Source: Desulfarculaceae bacterium (GTDB lineage: Bacteria > Desulfobacterota > Desulfarculia > Desulfarculales > Desulfarculaceae). Taken from it: DNA of 54,318 nucleotides. A program made the translations under genes and the position numbers. Location of the stretch: assembly GCA_027067385.1 (NCBI GenBank), contig JAMOVV010000038.1, positions 1 through 54,318 on the forward strand. The letters are read 5' to 3'. The notes beneath the pieces are model-generated. The model did no database searches and was not told the DNA's origin. It saw only the letters and a program-made list of their open reading frames with translations. Position 1 is the stretch's first letter; every line of letters begins with the position of its first letter. Shown in pieces: positions 23,801 through 24,937 of the stretch.

Positions 23801-24937
23801 ATGATGAGAGGATTGCAACAACGCCTATGGCTGGCCGGGGCCCTGGTCGCGGTGGCCATGCTGGTGGTCGGTTGCGCCGCCGGCGCGGGCGCTGGCCCAG
23901 CCAAGCATACGGCCAAGCCCAAGTGGTGGTTTAATGACACGGTCGACGTGGCCTTTGTGCAGCAGTACGCCAAGGTGCCCAAGCCCAAGGGCGTGATGAT
24001 CATCGACGCGCGTCCGGCCAGGGTGAAGTATGACCGGGGTTACATCCCCACCGCCGTCAACATTCCCTTCCGCAAGTGGGACAAGTACGCCCACCTGCTG
24101 CCCAAGGACAAGAGCACCCTGCTGATCTTCTACTGCCAGGGCCCCACTTGAAAGCTGAGCCACAAGGCCGCCTGGAAGGCGGTCAAGCTCGGTTACACCA
24201 ATGTCAAGGTCTTCGCCGGCGGCTATCCCGCCTGGATCAAGACCCCGGGCAACTACAGCTGCATCGGGGTGAGCTACCTCAAGTCCCTGATGGACAAGGG
24301 CGCCAAGATGGTGCTGGTGGACGCCCGGCCCAAGCGCGCCAAGTATGACAAGGGGCACATCCCCGGCGCCATCAGCATTCCCGCCAAGAAGTTCGCCAAG
24401 TACGCCCACCTGCTGCCCAAGGACAAAGACACCCTGCTGATCTTCTATTGCCAGGGATTCACCTGAAAGCTTAGCCACCTGGCCGCCCGGAGGGCGATCC
24501 AACTCGGCTATCGCAACGTGAGGGTATTCGCGGCCGGCTACCCCGCCTGGGTCAAGTACGCGGGGGTGAAGAAAAAGGCCGCGCCGCAGATCAAGCAAGG
24601 CGGCGACGAAGGGGTCATTGAGCTCAAGTCCTTCCTCAAGATACTCAAGGAAAATCCCCAGAGCATCCTGCTGGTGGATGTCCGCGACGCCGATGAATAC
24701 AAGGCCGGTCATTTCAAGACCGCGGTGAACATTCCCCTGGACGAGTTGGAGAAGAAACTCAAGACCTGGAAGGTGACCAAGCCGGTGGTGTTCGTGTGCA
24801 ACACCGGTTCCCAGAGCGGCGAGGCCTTCTACATGGTCATGGACCAGCGGCCGGACCTCAAGGGCAAGGTATTCTTCCTGGAGGCCGAGACCACCTACAA
24901 CGCCGACGGTACCTTTAAGATCAAGCCGGCCCACTAG
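23801..24937 (+). CDS. Candidate selenoprotein: lipoprotein with three rhodanese domains and two in-frame UGA (Sec) codons at 24149-24151 and 24464-24466
   Basis: ORFs 23801-24151, 24269-24466 and 24518-24937 share one frame separated only by two TGA codons; both TGA lie in the identical context IFYCQGxT-[TGA]-KLSH-AA; lipobox LVVGC; RBS AAGGAG. Confidence 0.87.
24149..24190 (+). promoter_or_regulatory. Candidate bacterial SECIS 1
   Basis: TGA then stem GGCCGCC-TGGAA-GGCGGTC (one G-U) with outer GAGC/GCTC; apical loop about 21 nt after UGA. Confidence 0.6.
24464..24505 (+). promoter_or_regulatory. Candidate bacterial SECIS 2
   Basis: TGA then CGCCC-GGA-GGGCG stem at the same distance as SECIS 1; weaker than SECIS 1. 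Confidence 0.5.

Follow-up and report, generated by a model that had tools for sequence, protein, structure and literature searches.

What does a rhodanese gene interrupted by two in-frame TGA codons encode, and what might its product do beside a molybdoenzyme and an octaheme cytochrome? The gene in question lies at 23801–24937 on the plus strand of contig JAMOVV010000038.1 from a Desulfarculaceae bacterium (assembly GCA_027067385.1), within the 54,318-nucleotide stretch that was analyzed as a whole and is called the window here. From sequence and comparison, it is almost certain that both UGAs are read as selenocysteine (Sec) in a triple-rhodanese lipoprotein, each with its own in-frame selenocysteine insertion sequence (SECIS) hairpin, through SelB and tRNA-Sec. 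The full explanation, in which this double-Sec protein would act as a Cys/Sec sulfur relay beside the molybdoenzyme and octaheme cytochrome, we regard as probable.

The initial annotation had claimed that a single frame runs through this region, interrupted only by TGA at 24149–24151 and 24464–24466, and that these codons occupy equivalent positions of duplicated rhodanese domains. Retranslation with TGA read as U bore out both claims, returning one frame of 378 codons with exactly those two UGAs and a TAG stop at 24935–24937. The UGAs become residues U117 and U222, each five residues past a catalytic cysteine (C+5), namely Cys112 in domain 1 (24134–24136), which is invariant in the alignment, and Cys217 in domain 2 (24449–24451), likewise placed by alignment. 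The active-site loops read YCQGPT-U-KLSH in domain 1 and YCQGFT-U-KLSH in domain 2, and Pfam finds three rhodanese stretches with Cys in the active loop (PF00581, 2.7e-49, 166 bits against a cut-off of 22.2). The gene is indeed missed by the open reading frame list, as had been pointed out; at a threshold of ≥80 amino acids (aa), the list holds only two pieces of the frame, 23801–24151 and 24518–24937.

A search for the Sec machinery, which the initial annotation had proposed, found all of it in the window's own genome: tRNA-Sec (73.3 bits, above the gathering score), selA (595 bits), selB (414 bits), and selD (366 bits; L186, G000:C126), the last with one in-frame UGA in the motif GUAAKIGP. 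With this complete set, the host cell should be able to insert Sec. The neighboring gene at 23042–23674 terminates at an ordinary TGA stop, so recoding is site-specific and the code itself is unchanged.

Relatives read from DNA carry either Cys or Sec at the two sites and no unrelated residues; for the domain 1 position, this holds in every relative of the same architecture examined. Same-family genomes and one Desulfovibrionaceae assembly encode an uninterrupted protein with Cys at both UGA sites, for example FYCGGLDCKLSH and FYCGGYDCKLSH. An ortholog with 63% identity and UGA at both sites is found in G366, a genome from another family of the same phylum that likewise has selB and tRNA-Sec, and three more genomes combine UGA in domain 1 with Cys in domain 2. 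The best 80 metagenomic loci divide into 38 Sec/Sec, 21 Sec/Cys, and 21 Cys/Cys, with the Cys/Sec state (Cys in domain 1, UGA in domain 2) seen in none of the 80; these loci were chosen by similarity to the window, so their shares do not represent population frequencies. In a 97-sequence tree, five changes account for the three states, and the Sec/Sec proteins group in a single clade with 40 members (Shimodaira–Hasegawa-like approximate likelihood ratio test support, SH-aLRT, 98). Ahead of the first UGA, between the two, and past the second, substitutions concentrate at third codon positions, and purifying selection, judged from this sequence pattern, is persisting downstream of both.

A bacterial SECIS (bSECIS)-like hairpin was found on the plus strand after each UGA. 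The published model has a stem of 4–16 bp, a loop of 3–9 nt, G in the first two loop positions, a spacing of 16–37 nt, and a minimum free energy of ≤ −7.5 (PMC13188914). Hairpin 1 (24166–24184; GGCCGCC-UGGAA-GGCGGUC) fits this model, with 8 bp, a 3-nt loop (GGA) starting 22 nt past the UGA, and an energy of −12.6. Hairpin 2 (24484–24496; CGCCC-GGA-GGGCG) has 5 bp, a loop G, and a loop that also starts 22 nt past the UGA; its isolated stem reaches −7.0 kcal/mol against the model's −7.5, and the 45-nt fold reaches −13.6. Nearly all Sec relatives have a paired stem at the corresponding position, and their stems fall clearly within the same model.

Several points weigh against the reading of a double-Sec sulfur relay. 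The substrate and electron partner of the triple rhodanese are inferred from neighboring genes only, and the domain 3 Arg is replaced by Gln in the window protein. Site 2 has the weaker hairpin in the window, where the 45-nt fold does not outperform shuffled sequences (z −0.06). Against a synonymous-codon null, site 1 is only moderately unusual (p ~0.04), and site 2 gives p values of 0.06 for spacings of 20–23 and 0.28 for spacings of 16–37.

Since the SECIS test within the window was indecisive, we used a comparative test across the family. A hairpin of ≤ −7 at a spacing of 20–23 is present at 98 of 99 UGA sites and at 3 of 63 Cys sites. Sec/Cys genes show the hairpin at site 1 in 21/21 cases and at site 2 in 0/21, and another set of rhodanese loops, drawn from whole genomes, gave 28/30 for UGA against 6/53 for Cys. 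Within the stem, a Ser codon and an Ala codon covary at their synonymous third positions, with TCC/GCG, TCA/GCT, and TCT/GCA forming C-G, A-U, and U-A pairs. This Watson-Crick pairing holds in 43 of 44 distinct site-1 sequences, compared with 22.7 by shuffling (0 of 10,000 shuffles as high). When pairs were counted over the stem, 98.8% of cells were paired and the covariation score was 0.180, compared with at most 0.044 for slid structures. At Cys site 1, these columns of the stem are still 80% paired and covary to some extent, partly through the shared protein sequence and probably also through reverted genes. Because related sequences are non-independent, such p-like figures overstate certainty. 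One Cys/Cys gene, L112, sits within the Sec/Cys proteins on the tree and has an intact hairpin (L112:1174–1218), as would be expected of a recent Sec-to-Cys reversion.

The initial annotation had argued that two independent nonsense mutations at homologous positions were far less likely than recoding. That argument is unsafe. In the G366 gene (L068), both rhodanese repeats are identical over at least 48 nt from the UGA onward, hairpin included, which suggests gene conversion, and repeats able to exchange sequence need not have mutated independently. Each refutation check that the initial annotation set out nevertheless came out in favor of recoding. The recoding claim itself stands on other grounds, the Sec machinery, the Cys/UGA relatives, the SECIS-like hairpins, and conservation within the clade; its proof lies in the conservation of both UGAs across lineages.

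The assigned start is consistent with a likely ribosome-binding site, AAGGAG, at 23790–23795 (plus strand) and with the lipobox that follows. Because the N-terminus consists of a hydrophobic segment and a lipobox (VVGC) whose Cys25 (23873–23875) is the likely lipid anchor, the protein is likely to be exported and lipid-anchored. Domain 3 carries Cys333 (24797–24799) in CNTGSQSG; its relatives have CxTGxR, with Cys and Arg in 80 of the 80 best metagenomic loci, and the position is never Sec. An AlphaFold model has a mean predicted local distance difference test (pLDDT) score of 90, and each predicted domain matches solved rhodaneses, a match that does not settle the chemistry.

We then considered the gene neighborhood, which on the plus strand runs as an operon into the rhodanese gene. 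It comprises a HmcB/HybA-like 4Fe-4S protein with twin-arginine translocation (Tat) export (16517–17464), a fusion of an NrfD/HybB-like membrane subunit with an octaheme tetrathionate-reductase-family cytochrome c (17461–20727), a Tat-exported molybdopterin oxidoreductase nearest to PhsA/PsrA that aligns a Cys with the Mo-ligand position (20762–23008), and the 4Fe-4S dicluster subunit, TtrB/NrfC-like, with the ordinary TGA stop (23042–23674). The C-terminal half of the fusion scores above the TIGR04315 cut-off and matches PDB 1sp3 (9.9e-136). For the molybdoenzyme, the nearest PDB entry is Thermus PsrA/thiosulfate reductase (2vpw, 6e-115), and PhsA is the top profile, yet the score falls under the PhsA cut-off. 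A divergent sigma-54-dependent regulator (14557–15972, minus strand) is kept beside the rhodanese gene in many relatives. G366 has the identical order of sigma-54 regulator, FeS protein, NrfD-octaheme fusion, molybdoenzyme, FeS subunit, and rhodanese. The fusion is also present in both G366 and G003, and a plasmid search with it returned partial matches only. Sulfur disproportionators have a MOLY cluster that is recognized by its TorD-type chaperone and distinguished from transmembrane-anchored enzymes (PMC12998232); we do not equate the operon with it, since the operon has an NrfD anchor.

The link to a molybdenum/multiheme operon, singled out by the initial annotation, is present here, but that operon is only one of two contexts. 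Among loci with enough flank, the FeS/Mo pair lies directly upstream of the rhodanese gene in 11 of 54, and an octaheme cytochrome directly downstream in 35 of 47. Where both flanks were available (n = 37), 33 loci had exactly one of these settings and none had both. The octaheme cytochrome is thus the recurrent partner in the two settings.

This conserved linkage of the rhodanese to a PhsA/PsrA-like MopB enzyme or an octaheme cytochrome supports a relay role. It is about an even call that the protein would serve as a sulfur relay or persulfide reductase for the co-encoded PsrA/PhsA-like molybdoenzyme and octaheme cytochrome. In the proposed mechanism, domains 1 and 2 would use a Cys-x4-Sec pair where rhodaneses canonically have Cys-x4-Arg. 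Cys112 and Cys217 would take sulfane sulfur from polysulfide, tetrathionate, or thiosulfate to form a persulfide, which Sec117 and Sec222 would resolve, releasing sulfide or handing the sulfur on and leaving an S-Se bond. Redox partners would reduce that bond again, and domain 3, with its CxTGxR loop type, would function as a conventional sulfurtransferase.

A less likely account has the same double selenoprotein as a periplasmic thiol/selenol redox protein, handling protein disulfides or peroxides with no sulfur relay. The Cys-x4-Sec pair does look like redox pairs; the related TsoB has Sec in both places (UxxxxU) and a DsbD-like reductase as its fusion partner, and in a paralog from the same genome, a Sec rhodanese is combined with a ResA/TlpA-like thioredoxin domain. 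The adjoining genes, in contrast, are sulfur-compound reductases, domain 3 of the relatives retains the sulfurtransferase-type CxTGxR loop, and Pfam finds no thioredoxin or DsbD domain in the triple-rhodanese protein. Handling of selenite, tellurite, or metals, by analogy with the Geobacter rhodanese lipoprotein ExtH, would be improbable. ExtH belongs to a multiheme cluster in which deletion of extI impairs selenite and tellurite reduction (PMC5877670, PMC6148476), and both proteins are rhodanese-family lipoproteins adjoining multiheme cytochromes. The gene cluster is a different one, though, with the predicted Sec there in the neighbor ExtKL; the ExtH model NF040901 gives 26.4 bits (cut-off 200), so the protein is not placed in that family, no porin-cytochrome cluster occurs at the locus, and the nearest enzymes are PsrA/PhsA and octaheme tetrathionate reductase.

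Two further readings would do away with the selenoprotein itself, and we reject both. That the gene is a decaying pseudogene carrying two nonsense mutations, or a product of sequencing errors, has next to no probability: single-base changes from TGC/TGT to TGA would create both stops, and gene conversion between repeats could spread one stop, as the L068 tract illustrates, but both UGAs are kept throughout the clade of 40, substitution stays third-position-biased past both, the SECIS stems covary, and the occurrence of two UGAs in dozens of independent contigs rules out sequencing error. That UGA is read as another amino acid such as Trp in this genome, without SECIS, is just as implausible, since the Trp seen at both sites in 6 of the 120 best database relatives, and at a single recognized site in 1 of 120, stands against Cys in relatives read from DNA, the TGA stop of the adjacent gene in the same operon, and a complete Sec machinery. 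The six full-length database proteins with Trp at both Sec sites (P0025 and five others) apparently stem from gene calling in which TGA was translated as Trp.

Returning to the double-Sec triple rhodanese, we compared it with known selenoproteins and rhodaneses. Rhodanese-like selenoproteins are a recognized class, as the initial annotation stated; a 2026 review gives 119 prokaryotic selenoprotein families with five rhodanese forms, among which TsoB alone has two Sec, both in one loop, with a DsbD fusion (PMC13188914). A double-Sec rhodanese of a different architecture is already on record in TsoB. TsoB (NF045694) shares the rhodanese context, a second Sec at C+5, and an equal hairpin spacing; it differs in that both Sec lie in one loop of one domain, its catalytic Cys also being Sec, and in its DsbD fusion. 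With 143 bits against the NF045694 cut-off of 805, no DsbD domain, and CxxxxU loops, the window protein falls outside TsoB, and it also falls below the cut-off of the CxU rhodanese-related (seleno)protein model NF041203 (80.5 bits against 115). Rhodanese-like selenoprotein form 1 (PF00581, WP_010941598.1; PMC13188914 Table 1) has a rhodanese domain and UxxS, matched here by UKLS at both sites. Form 1, compared by its description in that table only, is listed with a single Sec, whereas two of the three tandem domains here carry one each; the lipobox and molybdoenzyme/octaheme operon found here are further differences. Neither NCBIfam nor the consulted passages of the 2026 catalogue (PMC13188914) yielded a three-domain rhodanese with two Sec, and provisionally, with form 1 compared by description only, we consider this architecture not described before.

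Architecture and synteny are shared with the Cys-form triple rhodaneses annotated "rhodanese-related sulfurtransferase," which differ in having Cys for Sec at both sites; 60 of the 63 Cys sites have no SECIS-like hairpin. Prat et al., in 2012 (cited in PMC6148476), reportedly dealt with PhsE, a tandem rhodanese of Desulfitobacterium hafniense. PhsE and Wolinella Sud are multi-active-site or periplasmic rhodaneses tied to thiosulfate or polysulfide reductases as sulfur suppliers, and to our knowledge, neither contains Sec. By description only, the likeness is that the rhodanese here is linked to a PsrA/PhsA-like enzyme, and by analogy, sulfur transfer to the molybdoenzyme would be predicted.

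Other rhodanese genes with UGA were observed alongside this family. The paralog in the same genome (G000:C163, L048:1822–2895) has UGA at C+5 (VYCRSFKULRSEIAARWA) in the rhodanese joined to its ResA/TlpA-like thioredoxin domain, together with a strong bSECIS-like hairpin (−13.7); some relatives carry an ortholog of it as the next gene downstream of the triple rhodanese. Cys forms of this paralog (L022, L023, L055), like L112, have a Cys codon followed by an intact SECIS-like hairpin, with energies of up to −15.2 across these loci; they would represent the "fossil SECIS" expected of recent Sec-to-Cys reversion. A separate multi-rhodanese family of ~450–530 aa with one UGA at C+5 (e.g., FYCEGFRUVLSPMAARLA) is common in the phylum (L028, L029–L033, L057–L060, L080, L084, L085, and L087).

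The piece of the triple rhodanese after the second UGA matches 332 public database clusters. Among the 120 of these that were listed, 95 measure 134–160 aa and 25 measure 205–242 aa, sizes that fit the pieces after the second and first UGA, respectively. Hundreds of public "rhodanese" entries are thus probably stubs from misreading of UGA.

Dozens of related uncultured bacteria retain both UGAs and their hairpins, in a protein that public gene predictions split. The tandem domains appear to have gained Sec successively, and because Cys/Cys, Sec/Cys, and Sec/Sec forms all survive, the order of gain can be tested on the tree. It is possible, though somewhat doubtful, that these proteins form a widespread, unannotated double-Sec sulfur-relay family, in which a Cys-persulfide and Sec resolving pair would provide octaheme tetrathionate-reductase-family cytochromes and Psr-like enzymes with sulfane sulfur or reduce it for them. 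Such a family, if real, would add to periplasmic sulfur reduction or disproportionation an undescribed step that depends on selenium. The protein at this locus connects selenium with the reduction of sulfur compounds in the periplasm of uncultured Desulfobacterota.
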